From contig DAIDDL010000004.1 of NCBI GenBank assembly GCA_027309085.1, positions 68,865 through 132,864 on the forward strand: 64,000 nucleotides of DNA, given 5' to 3'. Source of the DNA: Sulfobacillus sp. (GTDB lineage: Bacteria > Bacillota > Sulfobacillia > Sulfobacillales > Sulfobacillaceae). The position numbers and the translations under genes were made by a program. Below the pieces are notes generated by a model. It did no database searches, had not been told where the DNA came from, and saw only the letters and a list, made by a program, of their open reading frames with translations. Each line of letters starts with the position of its first letter. Position 1 is the stretch's first letter. Below, in pieces: positions 36,085 to 47,159 of this stretch.

Positions 36085-37106
36085 TCAAGATCCCTTGAGC
36101 GTTGTGTCCTCTTGGGAAAATTGCCGAGACCACAACACGGGACGCAAACGCACTAACCCTTGCGCCATCAGCAACAGCACCGGCAACTCCACCAACGGCC
36201 CCACAAGAATGGCCATGTAGACGAGAGGATGGCCAGGAAATGCTGCCATGGCCACGCCAATCACCACTTCCGAGTTCCTGGCCGTCGTCGTAAACGTCAG
36301 GGTAACATTGTCCTCGTAGCTCAAGTGCGCCCATGCGCCATTGAATAGCGCGAGCAGAAACATAATGACAAAAAAAGCGAAAATCGCCCCCACCATCGTA
36401 AGCAGCGCCACGAGGTCGTGGATTTTAAGCGGCGGTTGACTCGCAAACAACGCCACTATGACGACCACCAACGCCCATAGCTTGAAAGGGCCCAAAATGT
36501 CTTTCACAGGACCTGCAAAGACCGCTTCCCCCTGGCGATGAAGAAGCCACCATTGCAGTCCCCACCCGACCGCAAACGGGGCCACAACGAAGATTCCCAC
36601 ACTCTGGAGTAAGGTCCATGGGTTTAAATAGAGCACGTGGCCGACCAGTACCACAAATAGAGGGGCAGCAAGAGAATTTGCAGTCCCAATTTCCATGGCA
36701 AGAGCGTCGCTCCCCAAGCCACATCGCCTTGCGCTGCGTCGATGAAAATAAGGTACCAGCCGACGCATGGGGTCAACGCGTATAAAATCAGGCCAATCCA
36801 CAAGTCCGGGTTATGGCGCAAAAACAGCCATCCTAACAGCCAGGCAACGCCCGGGATGATCACAAAATTGGTCGTCAGAGCCAGAGCGGTCGCCTTTCGC
36901 TTCCTCAATGCACCCCGCAAGTCAGCGGTGCGAACGCCGAACATGACCGCCGTAATTACTAGAAAGATACCGATGTTGACCAGCGGGTGCAAAAATGCTA
37001 AGGCACCATGGGCTAACCAATTGAGGCCGAGTCCAATCAGCATGGCTGCGACCAGAATAAATGGGGTCGCCTCATCTTGCCGGGACTGGCCCTTTGCCTG
37101 AGCCAT
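36085..37106 (-). pseudogene. Arsenite-efflux-like permease (ACR3/bile-acid symporter superfamily), frameshifted
   Basis: The minus-strand frame starts at ATG 37106 (GGGAGAGG upstream) and encodes ten-helix permease sequence: FVIIPGVAWLLGWLFLRHN then LTPCVGWYLIFIDAAQGD, close to arsenic resistance proteins with a conserved Pro-Cys in the core helix. Around 36630-36645 the frame is lost: LLLPLYLWYW ends in a premature stop. The second half continues in another frame from VGHVLYLNPWTLLQSVG to TTARNSEVVIGVAMAAFPG. One missing base restores a protein of about 340 residues. It is a fresh pseudogene or a sequencing error. Confidence 0.8.
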
Positions 37107-37198
37107 CACGTTCCTCTCCCTTCTAAGAACGCGGCCGGAATCGCGGCGGGCGGCGTGGTTTCGTTGCCATTCTAATCGGCCCTCACGGTTGCAGCCCT

Positions 37199-38061
37199 TT
37201 AGGCAGAGACGTGAGGCACTGGGGGACGTGCCTGGTGCCGCATGTGCCACCAGAGGTGGGCGATGCCCGCAAGCGCTGCCACGGCTGCTGCCATGGTGCC
37301 CATATGCCATGTCTCCCCAATCAACTCGCCGGCCACCGCCAGCAGAATCACACCGTATAAGGCCTTAATCCATGAGGGCTTCGCACGGTGCGCCATAAAC
37401 CAAGAGCCCGCTATACTGCCCGCACTCGCCGCTATCAGAGTCACGACGAGAATGAGGCCCGGAATGGCCATATGGGCCATGTGGCCCGAAAACCCGGCGA
37501 GACTGGAGACGGTCGCGACGGCTGCCGTGGTGGCCGCACTCGTCTTGGCACGGTATCCCATCCAAATCAGCATCGGGCTGATAATGAACCCGCCCGCTAT
37601 GCCCAACAGCCCTCCGATAAAGCCCGCCCCGCCCGCCACTAGTGCGCCTAAGAGCGCCCGGCGGGCCCACGGAATTTCCGTATCCGGCTCGGGTTGCTGT
37701 ACCAGCCAGAGCGTCCGGGCCGCGGCGATGAGCAGCATCGCGGCAAATGCCCAGATCCAGATGAGAAGGCGCGCAGGCAGGTCGCCTGTGACCAGAGCCC
37801 CCAGCGGGGCCCCGATGAGCACGGCAATCATCATCGGCCACGCACCCCTCCAATCAATGAGGTGTTGACGCTGATATTGCGGCAAAGAAAAGATCTTAGC
37901 GGTTGCACTTAATAAAATGCCTAGCGGATCGCTACGGTCTTGACATCATAGCCCACCCAGTGAAAGAGCGGCATATAAATCATGCCGCCTCCTTGCCCCA
38001 GCATGGAAAAGATAAAGGAAATGCCCACGACGCCGCCTGTGACTCCGAATAAACCGCCCAT
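37199..38061 (-). pseudogene. TauE/SafE-family sulfite/anion exporter, frameshifted
   Basis: The first ~46 residues (VTGGVVGISFIFSMLGQGGG, MIYMPLFHWVGYDVKTVA) and the remainder (GGAGFIGGLLGIAGGFIISP, MLIWMGYRAKTSAATTA) are the two inverted-repeat halves of a TauE/SafE transporter with the paired GxxxGGG motifs. They lie in different frames. The break is at about 37926-37930, where one extra base would give KTVAIPLGILLSATAKIF. TauE proteins export sulfite, sulfoacetate or related anions. The exact start is uncertain (ATG 38061 or GTG 38070). Confidence 0.8.
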
Positions 38062-38079
38062 CTCCCTCACCCATCTTTC

Positions 38080-38673
38080 TCAGATCTGTGCGCTGCTGTG
38101 CACGTGATGGTCCCAGCAGGCCGGACACCATGCCCCGTCTCCGGACTGGTGGGCATCGCTGCCGATCACCAGTTCCCCGCAGTCCGTGCAGCGGACATGG
38201 GTCCAATCCATTGGAGACCCGATCACGGGATAGGCGGAAAACCGCTGCACCGTAAACATCTCTTCCACAGGACGATCCAAGATGCTCTGGATGTCTCCCG
38301 CCACTTATCCGGGGGCTGGGTGATATCCCTTCTGGTGCTGACTCTTGGCCGCCACTGGCGGCCGCTGTAAGAATTCTTCCAGGAATTCTGCGCGGAAACT
38401 GACCCGCACCGCTTCCTGGGACCCCACATCGACTACAGTCACGGCAAATTTTCCGAGGCGCGTGAATTGCAAATTGACCGTACAGCCGGTAATCCATTGG
38501 ATCCCGTCTACAAAACAATGGGAAAACTGCTCCGGCGCGACCTCCACGATGGCCGTCAGTTCCTTGTCCGCTGACCGCGGGACTTCCAATGCCGCCAGAG
38601 CCTCCCATCCTGCGCGCAATCCCAAGGGTAGCCCTAAACAGACATTTCCATGAAAAGCCTGCGCGGCCTGCAA
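38080..38673 (-). pseudogene. FmdE/FwdE-like protein interrupted by an in-frame stop
   Basis: A TTG start at 38673 (GGAAG upstream) opens AFHGNVCLGLPLGLRAG, the HGxxCxGxxxG motif of formylmethanofuran dehydrogenase subunit E-like proteins. WITGCTVNLQFTRLGKFAVT follows. TAA at 38305-38307 then interrupts the frame. Directly after it the same frame continues with IQSILDRPVEEMF and a zinc ribbon CTDCGE...CPACW, the usual FmdE C terminus. A single C to T change (CAA to TAA) would explain it. FmdE-like proteins are linked to molybdopterin enzymes. Confidence 0.75.
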
Positions 38674-38709: not shown

Positions 38710-39105
38710 CTAGGAGCCGGGTTGCAGGGGAACCCCGGATACCGGAGCATCTTTCCACGGATTGACCGGAACAGTTTCCCCCACGTGACAGGCCAGTGTC
38801 GTGTTCGCTTCCAGCGCGGCGACCTCGTCTGCCACATCGGGCCACGCCGCCATGAATGCGCTGCTGACGGGCAGGCGGTCCTCCGCCACCCGGTAGAAGA
38901 CCCACTGGCCTGCCCGCTGCTCGCAAATCAACCCCACTTGCCGCAAGCGTCTCAAGTGATGCGACACCGTCGGCTGGGAGACTCCTAAGACCTCAACGAG
39001 TTCACATACGCAGCGCGGCCCCCTCGCCAGCAGCGCAAAGAGGTGTAACCGCGTGACATCTCCCAGAACTTTATAAAACTCCGCCCAGTCCCGAAATGAA
39101 TCCAT
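38710..39105 (-). CDS. arsR: ArsR-family metalloregulator
   Basis: 131 residues, winged helix. VLGDVTRLHLFALLARGPRC then CVCEL is the alpha-3 metal site CxCxx of arsenic/antimony-sensing ArsR proteins. VSQPTVSHHLRRLRQVGLI is the recognition helix. ATG 39105 follows AGGAGG. It heads a same-strand run with the fmdE-, tauE- and permease-like genes (gaps of 36, 18 and 92 bases) and should repress them from the palindrome upstream. Unlike those genes it is intact. The C-terminal Cys (TLACHVGE) could add a ligand. Confidence 0.88.
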   Translation of the reverse strand: MDSFRDWAEFYKVLGDVTRLHLFALLARGPRCVCELVEVLGVSQPTVSHHLRRLRQVGLICEQRAGQWVFYRVAEDRLPVSSAFMAAWPDVADEVAALEANTTLACHVGETVPVNPWKDAPVSGVPLQPGS

Positions 39106-39148
39106 CCGTCAACCACCACCTCCTACCGATAGTCCATGATACCGATCC

Positions 39149-39168
39149 ATATAGACATATGTCTATAT
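39149..39168. promoter_or_regulatory. Candidate ArsR operator (perfect 20-bp palindrome)
   Basis: ATATAGACATATGTCTATAT is a perfect palindrome 44 bases upstream of the arsR start. AT-rich twofold-symmetric sites of this size are typical for ArsR/SmtB dimers. Confidence 0.75.
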
Positions 39169-39365
39169 CCATATGGACATGCACAACGACCCATATGGTC
39201 CTTACCAGTTGGAAGCTATTGCCGGTATAGTGAGAGCGCCTCGAGAGAAAGTGGTTGCCGCGGCCTCCCCTCTTAGTGCAGGCAGTCAAAAGAAAAATCT
39301 GGGCCGCAGACAATTGTCTCCCCAGCAACACCACCGCAGCCGACCCCGAGCAAGAGGAGTCGGCT

Positions 39366-39971
39366 CCTTTGGACTTGACACCATTAAACCGGCAGGACCC
39401 TTTGCCCTCCGCGGGTATGAGCACCTGAGGACTATTGCTCTTGCTCAGCAGGCGGATCCGCCTGTAGAGCGGGTGGCCGTTCCGGGCCACTTGTCTGGCA
39501 CCGTGCGTCTGATGAACGGCATGACTGTGTGCCTGTCATCGCCACAAAAGGCCAGGGGATCACGTCGTGGACGACTCAGGCGCTCCATGCGGCAATGGCC
39601 TCCGCCAATCGTCCGGAAAACGGGACGGTTCCGCAGGAACTGTATCAGAACTTTCTGGACCGGGGCTACTACGAATTACGCAACGCTGACGTCAAGCTAG
39701 AAGAACGCGCCATCAACTTTGCCGCCACCAAGGCCTTCCAGCTCGATGAAATCATGATCCAAGCGGCGCGCGAAAATCTGGTGCTGGACAGCATTTCCGT
39801 CGAAGCAGGCGGCTTGTGCCGGCCGGGCTCCGAATGCCGTGATGTTGTGCTATCGTTTTTCAACCCCCAGCGGCGCCAAAATACTGCCCGGCAGACTTCC
39901 GGCTGACGGTGGATGTCAGCGAGGCTCTCCCCGTAATGATTGGTCCCGTGCATTCCTGGTACATTTATTAG
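39366..39971 (+). pseudogene. Remnant of a PatG-like (cyanobactin maturase) C-terminal region
   Basis: Three frames must be joined. Frame 1 gives IKPAGPFALRGYEHL and VERVAVPGHLSGTVRLMNG. After a slip in GTGTG near 39530, frame 2 gives TKGQGITSWTTQALHAAM, NFLDRGYYELRN, AINFAATKAFQLDEIM and LDSISVEAGGLCRPGSECRD then VVLSFFNP. After a slip near 39885, frame 3 gives TVDVSEALPVMIGPVHSWYIY and a stop at 39969-39971. This order of motifs (ELRN, NFAATNAF, CRP/D-SxCxDV, DVSDVxPVTxGxVRSW) is what I recall of the C-terminal domain of PatG-type proteases. No subtilase domain, precursor or PatA-like gene is near. Confidence 0.6.
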
Positions 39972-40273
39972 GCGCTGTGCTGGAATTCACGCTGCCCATT
40001 CTATGGACCTTATGAAGAAGAGGAAATCGCCCAAGGGATGTCCTCTTAGCTGTGAACCGCTCAGGAAGGGTTTCATGCCTGTCCAACCGCACGGCAACTC
40101 GGGAGCGTAAATAGGGTAAGAACGATGCGGCCCCCACAGGTCCCTGCGCCAATGATTTGCGGCCCCCGGACGGCAGGATTCTCCTCATTGGTGATACGGG
40201 ACGTCAGGAAACCTTGCAGCACGTGAGGCTCTGAACGTTTCCAGTTGCCTTTAAGGCCAGTTTCTCATCCTGC
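39972..40273. other. Intergenic stretch, no gene seen
   Basis: About 300 bases between the PatG-like remnant and the convergent ATP-grasp gene. Only unsupported short frames are present, and no clear terminator was found. Confidence 0.35.
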
Positions 40274-41305
40274 TCACACCCAACATTGGCGGGCAAGATT
40301 TTCCACCAGAAGAGGGTAAGGCCATCCGGCAGCCTCCGCCGCCATAGCCACCAAAGACGCTTGCCCGTCCCGTCCTGGCCTGCCGGGCCCACTGAGATTC
40401 GGTTTAAAATTGACATCAACCATTCGGAATATCCCCTGGCCATCTTGCCGCCCATCAACTCGCACCACCCCCCGCGTGTTGAGGCTGTCCGCCAGAGATT
40501 CACACTGAGCGACGAAGTTGGCCAATTCCTGAGGCACCTGATTGGCCACCGCACTGTTCCCCGCAACTGGCGCTACCCCGCTGTAAGGCATAATGCCGTC
40601 GACATGTCCCTGGCGGATCACCGGAGGCAGGGCCCAATGATGATCCTTGATGAAACGGGTTTTGCGGCCACGGTAATCTCCTGGCGGCAAAACCGACACG
40701 GTCACCTCTTGTCCCGGCAGGTACGACTCGGCCATCACCGCGGCACCGTATGTGCCGACCTCCCAGTTCTGGATAATACGCCGGAGATCGTTGAGATTGT
40801 CCGCCCGCACCACCCCCTGGCTGCCCCGGCCCCGAACTGGCTTGACAATCACCGGAGCGTTTTCGCAATCCGTCCAGTGCGGTTCATGGAAAGCCTCGGT
40901 CCGCATGGCCTGCGGGACGGGATACCCGCCCTTCTCCAGCCATTGGTGCATGACCCATTTGTCCTCAAAGCGGTCTACCATTTGGGGCTCCTGGCCTATT
41001 ACCGAAATCCTCCCCAGCCAGCGGACAATCGGATGCCCGCTATAGAGAGTGGTGTTGGCCCAGAGAATTTCCGCTCCAGCCTCCACGGCTTGCGCGATGC
41101 CACTGGCCGTGTCCCCGAAGGCCCACGCCTCTTCCTGGTCAGGCGCTGGATCCGGCTGCGGCGTGACGACAGGAAAATTAGCGCACTGCAGGGCATAGCC
41201 AATATCGGCACCACTGTCCCGGTACCCCCCAGGTTTTAGAGGCTTGAGCGCGCCCCCGGACTTGGGAGCGGCCGCCGCCTGATACAATACCGCAACCGGT
41301 CTCAA
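40274..41305 (-). CDS. ATP-grasp enzyme of unknown specificity (D-Ala-D-Ala-ligase-like)
   Basis: 343 residues. The pre-ATP-grasp region ends near residue 105. RFEDKWVMHQWLEKGGYPVP opens the ATP-binding domain; PVIVKPVRGRGSQGVVRAD is the flexible ATP lid with two basic residues; AESYLPGQEVTVSVLPPGDY and VDGRQDGQGIFRMVDVNFKP then N give the Mg ligands (D...D-x-N). This is carboxylate-amine/thiol ligase chemistry via acyl phosphate; the substrates are unknown. TTG 41305 is used because GGGAGGGGG lies 8 bases upstream. It ends 300 bases from the PatG-like remnant on the opposite strand. Confidence 0.8.
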   Translation of the reverse strand: MRPVAVLYQAAAAPKSGGALKPLKPGGYRDSGADIGYALQCANFPVVTPQPDPAPDQEEAWAFGDTASGIAQAVEAGAEILWANTTLYSGHPIVRWLGRISVIGQEPQMVDRFEDKWVMHQWLEKGGYPVPQAMRTEAFHEPHWTDCENAPVIVKPVRGRGSQGVVRADNLNDLRRIIQNWEVGTYGAAVMAESYLPGQEVTVSVLPPGDYRGRKTRFIKDHHWALPPVIRQGHVDGIMPYSGVAPVAGNSAVANQVPQELANFVAQCESLADSLNTRGVVRVDGRQDGQGIFRMVDVNFKPNLSGPGRPGRDGQASLVAMAAEAAGWPYPLLVENLARQCWV

Positions 41306-41393
41306 TCTCTGCCCCCTCCCGGTGGAATCTTATCGCGCCCAGTCTCCAGCACCCTCAAGCTGCGAAAATTTCCTCCGACTCCGCGGTGATGTT

Positions 41394-42545
41394 CTAGAGC
41401 CCGATATTCTTGGCGATGATGGTCTTCATAATCTCATTGGTGCCAGCGTAAATAGACATCACGGCAATGTCACGGTAGCGGCGCGCTACGGGGTACTCTT
41501 CCATGTACCCATACCCTCCATGCAGCTGCAGGCACTCGCCAATGACTGCCTTAGCGGTATCGGTTGACCACCATTTCGCCATCGACACCTCGGTCACAAT
41601 ATCCTCCTGCTGCATGTGGCGGGCAATGAGTTGCTCCAAAAATGCCCGGCTGACATAAGATTGCGTCATCATTTCCGCCATTTTGAACCGTGTATTTTGA
41701 AATTTGCCAATCGGCTGGCCGAAAGCGGTGCGCTGTTTCACGTAAACCAAGGTTTCCGCCAGCGCTTCCTCCATGGCCACCTGCGCGGCAATAGCCACAA
41801 GGAGCCGTTCTTGCTGGAGCTTCTCCGCAAGGTAGCGGAAACCCTCACCCTCTTTCCCCAGCAGGTAGCTGGCTGGCACCCGGCAGTCTTCAAAGAACAG
41901 TTCCGCCGTGTCTTGGCTGTGCTGACCCATCTTATTCAATTGGCGCCCCCGGCTGAAGCCTGGCGCATCTTCGGGCACAACGATCAGACTGAAGCCGCGC
42001 TGGCGCGGTTCAGCTGCTGGGTCCGTCTTGGCCACGACGACGATTAGTCCCGCCTGAATGCCGTTGGTGATAAAAGTTTTTTGCCCATTGACCACGTACT
42101 GGTCCCCGTCACGCACTGCCGTAGTACGGATACCGGCCAGGTCCGACCCTGTTCCGGGCTCCGTCATGGCAATCGCCGTAATAGTTTCCCCACTGAGGCA
42201 CCCCGGCAGCCACCGCCGTTTTTGCTCCTCACTGCCATAGCTGGTGAGATAGGGCACGACGATGTCGTTATGCAGTCCAATCCCCACCATGCCGGACCCG
42301 ATCCGCTCGAGCTCCTCATTCACCACCACTGAAAACCCAAAGTCTGCGCCAGCGCCGCCGTAAGCTTCCGGCACCATGGGGCACAGAAACCCCTGCTCCC
42401 CCATGGAGCGCCAAAAAGCCTTCGGGATTCGGCGCTCTTCCTCCCACTGATTAAAGAAAGGCGCTGCATGCGCTTCGAGAAATCCACGTAAAGACTGCCG
42501 GAACATGTCATGCTCCGGGGTCAGGTACGGGTGCTTCACGGCCAT
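41394..42545 (-). CDS. Acyl-CoA dehydrogenase
   Basis: 383 residues, FAD-dependent. MTEPGTGSDLAGIRTTA and FITNGIQAG bind the flavin and substrate. LQLHGGYGYMEEYPVARRYRD and IYAGTNEIMKTI give the C-terminal signature, with the catalytic base Glu in GTNE. It introduces the 2,3 double bond in acyl-CoA. ATG 42545 has GGGAGGA directly upstream (tight spacing), so GTG 42539 may be the actual start. It begins 18 bases after the thiolase stop, so the two form an operon. Confidence 0.92.
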   Translation of the reverse strand: MAVKHPYLTPEHDMFRQSLRGFLEAHAAPFFNQWEEERRIPKAFWRSMGEQGFLCPMVPEAYGGAGADFGFSVVVNEELERIGSGMVGIGLHNDIVVPYLTSYGSEEQKRRWLPGCLSGETITAIAMTEPGTGSDLAGIRTTAVRDGDQYVVNGQKTFITNGIQAGLIVVVAKTDPAAEPRQRGFSLIVVPEDAPGFSRGRQLNKMGQHSQDTAELFFEDCRVPASYLLGKEGEGFRYLAEKLQQERLLVAIAAQVAMEEALAETLVYVKQRTAFGQPIGKFQNTRFKMAEMMTQSYVSRAFLEQLIARHMQQEDIVTEVSMAKWWSTDTAKAVIGECLQLHGGYGYMEEYPVARRYRDIAVMSIYAGTNEIMKTIIAKNIGL

Positions 42546-42563
42546 TCCTCCCGCAGTCTCCAA

Positions 42564-43751
42564 TTATTGCGCAATCCGTTCGATAATGGCCGCATTGGCC
42601 ATGCCGCCACCTTCGCAAATCGCAATCAGCCCATACCGCCCTTGCCTTTCCTCCAGGGCGTTCAACAGAGTTGCCGCAATGCGGGTGCCCGTGGCGCCGA
42701 GAGGATGCCCCAGAGCAATCGCCCCACCGTGCACGTTCACCTTATCCCACGGCGCGCCAATCTCTTTCTGCCAGGCGAGCACCACTGAAGCAAAGGCCTC
42801 GTTGACTTCAAACAGATCAATGTCAGACACACTGAGACCCGCCCGTTCCAGCGCCTTCTTGGTGGCAGGAATCGGTCCGGTCAGCATCGTGATGGGATCG
42901 ACCCCGACCACGGCAAATGAAACAAAACGCGCCCGCGGTGTCAGGCCCAGGCGTTCAGCCACATCCTTGCGCATGACCAGAGCCGCCGAGGCCCCATCGG
43001 AAATCTGGCTGGCATTTCCAGCGGTGACCAGCTCCAAATCGGGGAATGCCGGCCGGAGGCCCATCATTTTTTCCACACTTGTATCCGGCCTGATGCCCTC
43101 ATCCTCAGCAAACAGCCGCATAGTCTGACTATTTTCGTCCACTGGCACCTCCAAGGGAAGAATTTCATTCTTAAAGAGTCCCTGTGCCCTCGCCGCGGCG
43201 GCTAGCTGGTGGCTCCGCCATCCATACCGGTCCAAATCCTCCCGGCTCAGTCCCCACTCTTTGGCGATCATTTCGGCACCTAGCGCCTGGTCAAAAAAGT
43301 CACGGTTCCAGCGGTCGAGCCGATAGCGCTTCTTCAAATTCTCTGTCATGGGGTGCCCTTGAATTTGAATGGTGCTGAGCATGGGCACGCGCGTCATCGA
43401 CTCCACCCCGGCGGCAATGGCAATATCATAAGACCCCGACATGACTCCTTGGGCCGCGAAAGCCAGCGCCTGCAGGCTGGACCCGCACTGGCGGTCCAAG
43501 CTGGCGGCAGGCACTGATTCGGGCAGTCCCGCCGATAGCCACGCATTGCGCCCGACATTGCCGCCCTGCTCGCCCACCTGGTCCACACAGCCCACAATGA
43601 CATCGTCCACGCTGGCGGCGTCGAGGGCATTCTTTTCCACCAATTGGCTCAATACCCCGCCTAGAAGATCCACGGGGTGGGTTAGCGCTAAGCTTCCCTT
43701 GCGGCGCCCGAGTGGCGTCCGCACTGCATCCACAATGACAGCTTCAAACAT
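42564..43751 (-). CDS. Acetyl-CoA acyltransferase (thiolase)
   Basis: 395 residues. The nucleophile Cys is in SLDRQCGSSLQAL, the His in GGAIALGHPLGATG and the second Cys in AICEGGGMANA, the complete thiolase triad. NEAFASV is also present. It cleaves 3-ketoacyl-CoA or condenses acetyl-CoA. ATG 43751 follows GGGGAGGA. With the acyl-CoA dehydrogenase downstream, and the hydratase and SDR at 8700-10308, the window encodes all four beta-oxidation steps in two separate clusters. Confidence 0.93.
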   Translation of the reverse strand: MFEAVIVDAVRTPLGRRKGSLALTHPVDLLGGVLSQLVEKNALDAASVDDVIVGCVDQVGEQGGNVGRNAWLSAGLPESVPAASLDRQCGSSLQALAFAAQGVMSGSYDIAIAAGVESMTRVPMLSTIQIQGHPMTENLKKRYRLDRWNRDFFDQALGAEMIAKEWGLSREDLDRYGWRSHQLAAAARAQGLFKNEILPLEVPVDENSQTMRLFAEDEGIRPDTSVEKMMGLRPAFPDLELVTAGNASQISDGASAALVMRKDVAERLGLTPRARFVSFAVVGVDPITMLTGPIPATKKALERAGLSVSDIDLFEVNEAFASVVLAWQKEIGAPWDKVNVHGGAIALGHPLGATGTRIAATLLNALEERQGRYGLIAICEGGGMANAAIIERIAQ

Positions 43752-44087
43752 AATAAATCCTCCCCATGGTTCACAAATTTCACCAAAAACAGCCAGGCTG
43801 CTGACGGTTTGCCGATGCGCAAGAGACCGTCAGGCGATAAACTTTCCTTTAGTCATTTTATCATAATACAAATATATCCGTCACTCTTTCATCCTGACCA
43901 ATTCGTAATATTCAGATTGATGTCAGGCAAGACGCCTGACACGCCAAATTTACGGGCGTCGCATTCGGTCGAATTCTGGTATAGTGGCTCATATGATGAT
44001 TAGCGAGTGGTGGCTCTTCCTGAGTTTGCGCGCTTTCACCGCCCCTACCCGGGTGCATTGGAACTCGCTTGAGCCGAGAGGAGACTC
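43752..44087. promoter_or_regulatory. Divergent intergenic region with two inverted repeats
   Basis: Between thiolase (minus) and the diguanylate cyclase (plus). CTGACGGT (43801-43808) matches ACCGTCAG (43826-43833), about 50 bases upstream of the thiolase start, and TGTCAGGC (43921-43928) matches GCCTGACA (43934-43941). Both share a TGACGG/TGTCAGGC-like core and could be operators, for example of a TetR-type fatty-acid regulator. A TATAGT box at 43980-43985 may be the -10 for the cyclase gene. Confidence 0.45.
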
Positions 44088-47000
44088 ATGGGAATCCATA
44101 TCCGCCTGCCTATAAGGGAGCGAACTTCTGTTACCACGAAATATACAGTAGTCCTCTTGCTGCTGAACAGCTTGGCGGTGGTCTTGTTTGTCTACCTATC
44201 CCATGTGTACTGGCAGACCAATGTCCGCAGCACGCAGCGCAATTTAGGAGCGCAAGCAGCCGGGTCGGCAGCCCTTTTGGATAGCAAATTGACCACTGAC
44301 CAAGAATTTTTGCGGCAGACAGCCAGCATCTTGCCGTCGGCCACGTCTCCTTCTATGATCCATTCCGATCTCGTCCGCTTAAAACACGAGCTAGGTCCGA
44401 GCAATGCATCTCTCGCTGCGGTGGTGACAGGTCACGGCCAGTACGTCTCGCGTGTAGGGCCTCTGGTGCCTCTCCCCTCTCCTCCGCCAGGGAAGGCCAG
44501 TCTGGGGACCTTGGCGCCGCTCTTGCAAAGCGCATTCCGCGAGCCTTCCTTCTTTTTGTCGCTGCCCTTTGCCGACCCTCTCCAGCGAACCCGCCTTTGG
44601 GTATTGGCAGGCTCGCCAGTTTCTGGGCCGGGCCACCGCTACCTCATTATTGGCCGCGGGGCCTTCCTTCCCGTACTGGATCGCCAGCTGGCTTCGTCCC
44701 CTTATTCTGACGTGATCTTGCAGTTGCTGCGCCGCAATGGCATGGTGCAGAGCCAGTCCCCCGCTTTCCCGCCCGGGACCTCGAAAATAGTTCGCCCTGA
44801 CTGGTTCTCGCAGCAGATAGCACGGGACCCCCAGCTCCCGTCGGGACGGGGGACGGGCACTATTGGCCCCCGCGGCCCTTCCTATCTCATCGCGTTCTCG
44901 AAACTCAATGACTATCCGCTGTATGTGGCGGAAAGCGTGCCGGTGCAGTCGGTATTTGCCGGGTGGCTGCACACCATGCTGCTGGGGCTGATTGCTTTCG
45001 TGTGTCTCGTCATCCTCTCTGACGGCAGCATCCTCTTTATCATTTACCGTCTGCACATGTCCCGCGAACACCACGCTTCCACGCTGAAACTTTATAATGT
45101 GCTCTCGCAGGTCAGCCGCATCACCAGCACCGCCGCCACCGAATCCGACTGTCTGGAAGCTCTCGCACCGGCATTGTGCGCTCAGGCTTTCTATGCAACC
45201 TGGATTGGCGTCGCCGAGGCGGACAGCGTCCGCGTCCTGGTTGCTGCAGGGCCAGGTTCCGATGCCCTGCAGCAACTGCCTTTCAGCATTGGCGGCCACA
45301 ACGCAACCTACCAGTCTCTGGCCGCACGGGCCGTCCTCACCCAGCACACGCTGTATGACAACGACATCACCACGGCCCTGACACACCAGGGCTATGCCTC
45401 GTTTATCAAAACTTACCGTTGGGCTTCAGGCATTTCCATTCCGATCATGCGCCAGCACAGAGTCTGGGGAGTGCTGAATCTGATCAGTGACCGCCCGAAA
45501 GCTTTTGACCAGAACATCCTCCCCCTGACCGACCAAATTGGATGGTCCCTGCAAGATGCGCTCGAACGGTTCGACCTGCGGCAGCTAGAAGCGCAGGTGC
45601 GTCGAAAGAACCAGCTGATTCTCACCTTTCACCATGTTCTGGGGGCCATCGGGGAAGTGGCGCAGAAGACAATGGATGAGTCCGTGATTTTACAAGATGT
45701 GTGCTCGCTGCTTACTGAAAGCCAGGTTTTTGCAGCGGTGGGAATCGGCGTTCCCGGCACGGACGGGATCCTCCGCTTTCCCTACCGCGGCGGTGAGCCC
45801 TTCGCTTATGGGGGTCAGGACACTAGCGAAACAGAATCGGCGGCTGCCCGCGCCTGGCGCACAGGCAGGTACCGGGTCGAAAACGACTGGGAAGGGCCCG
45901 CAGTCCACCACCCTCTATCCGCGGCGCAGCCGTGGCAGTCCAGCGCTGACTTTGTCATTTACCGGAGCAAGGAACCGTATGCGGTTCTCGAGGTGTACCA
46001 CCGCGACAAAGATGTGTTCGACGCGGAGTTGATTCAGCTGGGGATTCGCCTGGCTGAACTGGTAGGACAGATCCTCACCAATGCGCGCAATGAAACGGAG
46101 CTGCACCGCCTTCACCAGTTCTATGAAGCTCTGGCCCACGCCAACGAACTGCTGCTGTACACCGACGATCCCCAGACCCTGTACGAATCGCTGGCAGAAC
46201 TCATCATGGCCCAGACGACAGCTTTGGGATGTTGGATCGCGTTGTCCGATGGCGCCCGCCTGGACGTTAAAACCCGGGTTTTTCAGGATGCGGCCACAGC
46301 CGTCCTCTTCGACCAGGAGATACAGCAGATTTCTCTGGAAGACTCCGCGGCGGCAGGACCCACGGTTATCAGCGATGTCCTGGCCTCAAAGAAACCCGTT
46401 GTCGTCAATGATCTGGCGGGAGAGACCCGGTATCCCGGCCCTCGTCTCATGCGGTACCTGCTAGCCGGGTCTATTGGTGCGGTGGCTGCATTCCCTATTG
46501 CCAATGGCACCGGTGAAAGCGGGGTGTTAACCGTGCACGGCCCTGCCCACCTGTTTTCGGACGAAATTATCACCTTGCTGCAGTCCTTAGCCTATAATCT
46601 CACCGCTAAGCTGAGATTTCTGCGCGCTGAGGAGGAAGAGGAGACGGTCAAAGCGCAGCTGGCCTATCAAGCCTCGCACGATGCCCTGACCCAGATTCCC
46701 AACCGCGCGCACTTTGAGAGGACACTCGACGAATTGGCGGGGAAACAGCGCCAAGTTCCCGTGCCAGCCACGATGATCATGGCTGACCTCGACAAGTTCA
46801 AGATGGTCAATGACACTTACGGCCACGCCGCGGGAGACTACGTCCTGCAAGTCACCGCCAAGCGCCTGCAGGGATGCCTGCGCGCTGAAGACACCCTGTG
46901 CCGCTACGGTGGGGATGAATTTGTCATCCTCATCGAATCTGCCCTGCCCTCTTTGACCCTCCACCGCCTTGCCGGCTGTCTCCTCGCCCGGGTGCAAGAA

Positions 47001-47159
47001 CCCGTGCTCTGGGACAACACAGCCCTGACCATCGGCATCAGCCTGGGGGTGGCGACAGACACGGAAGGCACGAAAGAGCCGCGGCAACTATTTAAGGAAG
47101 CCGATGAAGCCGTCTACGCCGCCAAACAGCACGGAAAAAACCGGGTGCAGTTTCGCTGA
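44088..47159 (+). CDS. Membrane diguanylate cyclase with sensor, tandem GAF and GGDEF domains
   Basis: 1023 residues. Two membrane helices (VVLLLLNSLAVVLFVYL near 25, and MLLGLIAFVCLVILSDGSIL near 295) frame a ~240-residue extracytoplasmic sensor region. Three GAF-like modules follow (~335-485, 510-665, 690-840). The C-terminal cyclase has DALTQIPNRAHFE, MADLDKFKMVNDTYGH and RYGGDEFVI (GGDEF at ~941-945). RAED at ~932-935 is a canonical RxxD inhibitory site five residues upstream. It should make c-di-GMP with product feedback. GAGGAG lies 5 bases before ATG 44088. Confidence 0.92.
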   Translation: MGIHIRLPIRERTSVTTKYTVVLLLLNSLAVVLFVYLSHVYWQTNVRSTQRNLGAQAAGSAALLDSKLTTDQEFLRQTASILPSATSPSMIHSDLVRLKHELGPSNASLAAVVTGHGQYVSRVGPLVPLPSPPPGKASLGTLAPLLQSAFREPSFFLSLPFADPLQRTRLWVLAGSPVSGPGHRYLIIGRGAFLPVLDRQLASSPYSDVILQLLRRNGMVQSQSPAFPPGTSKIVRPDWFSQQIARDPQLPSGRGTGTIGPRGPSYLIAFSKLNDYPLYVAESVPVQSVFAGWLHTMLLGLIAFVCLVILSDGSILFIIYRLHMSREHHASTLKLYNVLSQVSRITSTAATESDCLEALAPALCAQAFYATWIGVAEADSVRVLVAAGPGSDALQQLPFSIGGHNATYQSLAARAVLTQHTLYDNDITTALTHQGYASFIKTYRWASGISIPIMRQHRVWGVLNLISDRPKAFDQNILPLTDQIGWSLQDALERFDLRQLEAQVRRKNQLILTFHHVLGAIGEVAQKTMDESVILQDVCSLLTESQVFAAVGIGVPGTDGILRFPYRGGEPFAYGGQDTSETESAAARAWRTGRYRVENDWEGPAVHHPLSAAQPWQSSADFVIYRSKEPYAVLEVYHRDKDVFDAELIQLGIRLAELVGQILTNARNETELHRLHQFYEALAHANELLLYTDDPQTLYESLAELIMAQTTALGCWIALSDGARLDVKTRVFQDAATAVLFDQEIQQISLEDSAAAGPTVISDVLASKKPVVVNDLAGETRYPGPRLMRYLLAGSIGAVAAFPIANGTGESGVLTVHGPAHLFSDEIITLLQSLAYNLTAKLRFLRAEEEEETVKAQLAYQASHDALTQIPNRAHFERTLDELAGKQRQVPVPATMIMADLDKFKMVNDTYGHAAGDYVLQVTAKRLQGCLRAEDTLCRYGGDEFVILIESALPSLTLHRLAGCLLARVQEPVLWDNTALTIGISLGVATDTEGTKEPRQLFKEADEAVYAAKQHGKNRVQFR

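Follow-up and report, generated by a model that had tools for sequence, protein, structure and literature searches.

In the patellamide pathway, PatA takes off the leader of the precursor and PatG cuts and macrocyclises; the role of the C-terminal domain of PatG is not known, and binding of PatE to it was not detected by NMR (PMC4259220; PMC10885120). Intact relatives of these proteases share the architecture S8 subtilase–PatG_D–PatG_C. We analysed a stretch of 64,000 nucleotides from a Sulfobacillus sp. contig (henceforth the window, to which all positions refer) that carries a PatG_C domain spread over several reading frames. Taken as a single joint reading, it is highly probable that this locus is a PatA/PatG-type subtilase pseudogene, which was gained horizontally, has since decayed and was once a probable leader peptidase.

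A PatA/PatG-type protease remnant in successive frames

A profile of 67 full-length relatives served as the family model and was aligned to the window in a frameshift-aware manner. The homology path runs over 39369-39968 on the + strand and is collinear with positions 459-665 of 665, so that the matched part is the last 207 of the 665 positions of the PatA/PatG-type protease family, in successive frames. The path scored 557, against 37.6 ± 3.4 (maximum 44.6) for 40 shuffles of the DNA, a difference of about 15-fold. The frame changes at least three times along the alignment, near 39383, 39529 and 39897. The right border coincides with the natural C-terminus of the family, and the same alignment found no further family homology to the left of 39369. 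A scrap of five residues forms the left break of the homology and differs in frame from the next piece. The pieces and their surroundings are listed in Table 1.

Table 1. Features of the remnant and of its surroundings in the window
Feature	Position	Strand	Evidence or remark
SBF-type symporter, TauE exporter and FmdE	36085..37310, 37202..38070, 38083..38673	-	symporter and exporter each split over two frames
FmdE	within 36085..38673	-	stop ahead of likely zinc-ribbon end
ArsR-family gene	38710..39105	-	
Palindrome ATATAGACATATGTCTATAT	39147..39176		upstream of ArsR-family gene; likely operator (predicted)
5' scrap (LDLTP) of PatA/PatG-type protease	39369..39383	+	alignment start, model position 459/665; 5 residues, weak alone
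Segment 1: PatG_D end and linker to PatG_C	39383..39529	+	TIGR03895 402-466, E 4.8e-9
Segment 2: most of PatG_C, inside ORF 39529-39906	39529..39897	+	PF18065 7-93, E 2.1e-21
Central ORF	39529..39906	+	125 aa, GTG start
Segment 3: C-terminal strand FRLTVDVSEALPVMIGPVHSWYIY	39897..39968	+	PF18065 93-115, E 0.002, own-genome search
Small ORF MRPPQVPAPMICGPRTAGFSSLVIRDVRKPCST	40125..40226	+	33 aa

The first segment reads IKPAGPFALRGYEHLRT...RLMNGMTV, the second VPVIATKGQGITSW...YYELRN...ERAINFAATKAFQ...LCRPGSECRDVVLSFFNPQ, and the third consists of the C-terminal strand followed by a stop. The first-pass annotation, made from the letters alone, had named four motifs in a fixed order, and all four lie in that order on the + strand between 39366 and 39971. 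ELRN, NFAATKAF and CRPGSECRDV share the frame of the central ORF, and DVSEALPVMIGPVHSW lies in a different frame directly behind it, up to a stop just past 39968. The spread over three frames that had been described is thus correct, and the 5' scrap adds one more frame change.

The profile search that had been suggested as a check returned matches to PatG families. The PF18065 (PatG_C) match reached 76.5 bits, against a gathering cut-off of 25.9. Segment 2 also matched TIGR03895 over positions 456-579 (E 6.9e-29) and, at the level of sequence, the PatG DUF of solved structure (PDB 4uvq, E 5.1e-13). Segment 3 matched TIGR03895 positions 583-604 (E 0.0016, own-genome search) and is collinear with the intact relatives in the alignment. 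Together with the frame changes, these matches bear out the earlier proposal of a decayed PatG-type C-terminal domain. As a full-length protein the locus falls short of TIGR03895, with about 101, 35 and 19 bits on the three pieces against a cut-off of 421.

Compared with the known domains, the remnant retains the conserved CR..S.C.DV stretch of PF18065 and 4uvq and covers PF18065 in order, but the domain is split over two frames and has no attached protease. TIGR03895 is likewise recognisable in order from position 402 to 604 over three frames, whereas nothing is left of positions 1-401, which comprise the S8 catalytic domain and the start of PatG_D. The S8 subtilase domain is absent, as the homology begins only at model position 459. 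Neither an S8 half nor a second copy was found elsewhere in the genome by an own-genome search with TIGR03895, which returned the three C-terminal pieces only. Because the S8 domain is absent, the N-terminal 458 positions are gone and there are at least three frame changes, we regard the locus as a pseudogene remnant that today encodes no working protease. The gene has lost its catalytic domain through deletion or rearrangement and, in addition, carries the frame-changing lesions.

Comparison with intact relatives and distribution

The best identities to the fragment are 46-50% and belong mostly to stand-alone proteases that are not members of cyanobactin clusters. Among these best matches are proteases from a Nostoc plasmid (L008), Pleurocapsa (L015), Cellvibrio (L024) and a ‘Clostridia’ MAG (L016), which share this level of identity over 190-193 residues as well as the order of the segments and the C-terminus. 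Unlike the remnant, they are open in one frame (L008 being shortened in S8) and are followed by leader-bearing small ORFs, none of which occurs in the window. By tblastn, segment 1 alone is 53% identical to L008 and 51% identical to both L024 and L026. The L016 protease ORF (L016:1928-4918) is 997 aa long, about 300 residues above most, and has four leader-bearing ORFs downstream; the binning of this MAG may be wrong because the contig spans just 7.6 kb. The PatA/PatG protein of the Gloeothece cyanobactin cluster (L011) has a homologous C-terminal domain and the three-domain architecture of the intact relatives, but it is only 37% identical to the fragment, and genes for a SagB-type dehydrogenase, a TOMM leader-binding protein, PatB and PatC lie alongside it.

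Relatives occur in cyanobacteria, proteobacteria, Bacteroidota, Planctomycetota, Acidobacteriota, Actinomycetota and a few other groups, so that PatG_C is also present far from cyanobacteria, in proteases that have no cyanobactin genes beside them. The first-pass annotation had assigned the domain to the end of PatG-type maturases of cyanobactin clusters; the family was right, and the setting was drawn too narrowly. In the class, PatG_C was found in this genome alone among 154 searched. It was absent from the 60 relatives in a set of 61 genomes that included this one, and from the other members of a sample of 398 phylum genomes at the family cut-off, where one further match lay below the cut-off and contained five internal stops. 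No relative was detected in viral contigs (alignment A2 as query) or in phage records, nor in peptide-pattern scans of genome contigs and viral contigs with the single fragment. The fragment sits on a very long end branch (1.59) of the tree and falls inside no starred set, and its position is hence unsure. Since no copy was found in the other searched genomes of the class, this lineage probably gained the gene horizontally, after which it would have fallen out of use. The simplest reading is horizontal gain and subsequent decay.

Genomic surroundings

The SBF, TauE and FmdE genes that lie downstream of the ArsR-family gene look broken, and together with the remnant they mark 36.0-40.0 kb as a region of local decay or poor sequence, in which local sequence errors may accompany decay. 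The genes at 40274-47159 are open. No convincing mobile-element repeats were found at the borders of the remnant. The 3.4-kb DNA around it had no match in other genomes of the genus, and the neighbouring ATP-grasp gene has counterparts of 41% identity in two genus genomes, of which the one examined carries it in other surroundings, so that no clean empty site was found in the genus.

Leader peptides beside intact relatives

We compared the ORFs around the relatives all together and drew a leader family out of this comparison. Directly downstream of the proteases, on the same strand, lie small, often Cys-rich ORFs that start like M(K/N)LPxQxxPVxR. With a fixed leader pattern, 85 matches were found on the protease strand up to 6 kb downstream, at a median distance of about 360 bases, in 51 of the 84 loci (for example L024:6913-7295, L055:6500-7378, L091:6765-7639 and L016:4950-5800, and 47 others). 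The remaining sequence, 3.4 times as long, contained three matches, a 96-fold difference in density, and the reversed pattern also gave three. The p value of this enrichment (1e-50, uncorrected for relatedness) is nominal because the pattern came from the loci in which it was counted, loci that are related do not count independently, and the 85 matches include a few that are PatB-like or have no cysteines. In the other 33 of the 84 loci, the fixed pattern found no such peptide.

Weak similarity links the leaders to two cyanobactin precursor families, TIGR03678 (E 0.008) and TIGR04446 (E 0.06), and to PatB (TIGR04220, E 0.18), in each case at the N-terminus. A precursor-like ORF with an LPxQxxPVxR-type start is also present at L089, an Oscillatoria locus that groups with the protease of the L011 cyanobactin cluster. 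No recurring modification enzyme was seen near the stand-alone relatives among the 25 commonest families listed (87 sampled neighbours, L011 excluded). Stand-alone PatA-type proteases with such peptides are undescribed in the literature that we searched, a search with most subscription journals outside its reach.

By analogy with these neighbourhoods, leader removal from the adjoining peptides is the likely role of the intact relatives. The leader peptides downstream of the relatives suggest that the gene behind the remnant was probably a leader peptidase as well: the intact protease would have cut small precursors encoded just downstream, with PatG_C serving for recognition or as a scaffold, without a catalytic role. 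Its substrates were probably peptides of the LPxQxxPVxR type, judging solely from the relatives, and the use made of such peptides by its own subfamily is unsure.

Alternative explanations

We asked whether the gene might be broken solely in the assembly, with sequencing indels splitting the frames artificially. The genome is a draft of 172 contigs, the genes at 36.0-38.7 kb are split as well and the motifs of the remnant are well preserved, and the frame changes could partly reflect sequence errors. The loss of S8 could not, however: this domain, together with part of PatG_D, is absent both mid-contig and genome-wide, which indels cannot explain, and the adjoining genes from 40274 onwards are intact frames. 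Sequencing errors alone are insufficient because the missing 458 positions fall mid-contig, and we consider a purely artificial break very unlikely. Equally slim are the chances that translation of the central ORF continues and yields a stand-alone PatG_C with a new role. It is open across most of the domain and retains ELRN, NFAATKAF and CRPGSEC, but the conserved last strand follows immediately in a different frame, the upstream half sits in a third, the ORF has no counterpart elsewhere in the class and its end branch in the tree is long. The functional stand-alone domain that the first-pass annotation had offered as its second option is therefore unsupported, since its C-terminal strand, upstream half and centre occupy different frames. 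Programmed frameshifting that fuses the frames into a single functional protein would account for the collinearity of the three frames and for their conserved motifs, yet it would need three frame changes within about 530 bases, all 67 full-length relatives in the profile are single-frame and the catalytic domain is missing regardless; this explanation is barely conceivable.

The remaining alternative, that the locus is a decayed patA or patG of a true, YcaO-dependent and macrocyclising cyanobactin operon, concerns the kind of gene that was lost. PatG_C and TIGR03895 take their names from cyanobactin maturases, and the fragment matches the solved PatG DUF at E 5e-13. Against this, a YcaO/PatD heterocyclase is absent from the genome at E 0.01, and neither the window nor the genome yielded a second Pat gene. 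No leader match to a PatE-like precursor occurs in the window, the genome has two leader-pattern matches, at control level and neither convincing, and no small leader-bearing ORFs with an LPxQxxPVxR start were found downstream of the remnant on the + strand. With no leader peptides above control and no YcaO, there is therefore no trace of precursors or cyanobactin chemistry. The fragment is moreover closer to its best matches, mainly stand-alone proteases, than to L011 (46-50% versus 37%), and the tree does not group it with the clade of L011 and L089, although the long branch makes its placement unsure. We therefore hold a cyanobactin operon to be improbable. Of the earlier idea that a RiPP cluster once existed here, the family assignment and, by analogy, the neighbours of relatives speak indirectly in favour, whereas precursor, YcaO and second Pat gene are all missing.

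The small ORF at 40125-40226 sits where relatives carry precursors. We considered this ORF (MRPPQVPAPMICGPR...) as a decayed precursor and rejected it: although it is the best candidate in the window, its leader score of 6.4 ranks 68th of 89,649 positions and compares with a training 5th percentile of 26. It is probably a chance match because the score is far under that of real leaders.

Significance

The remnant belongs to a known protease family and is dead, in an unusual host. Read as a horizontally gained and decayed gene, it documents that a PatA/PatG-type protease gene reached a class with no other among the genomes searched. A further proposal, which we put forward tentatively and consider possible but short of probable, is that the remnant preserves a trace of a RiPP-like system that is widespread, in which a stand-alone PatA/PatG-type protease is paired with several leader-bearing small peptides. 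The LPxQxxPVxR-like leader of such a system may resemble the start of cyanobactin precursors and PatB, with no known modifier recurring nearby, and its range may extend over cyanobacteria, proteobacteria, Bacteroidota, Acidobacteriota and others. The leader-bearing ORFs would then possibly form a RiPP-like family that is widespread and undescribed and has a relationship to cyanobactin leaders and PatB. The pairing of protease and peptides in the relatives is a better lead than the remnant itself. It makes a role of PatG_C testable, for example in binding the LPxQxxPVxR leader start, and suggests a possible source of cyanobactin leaders and PatB. If the proposal is true, cyanobactin clusters would be one specialised branch of an older protease–peptide pairing.
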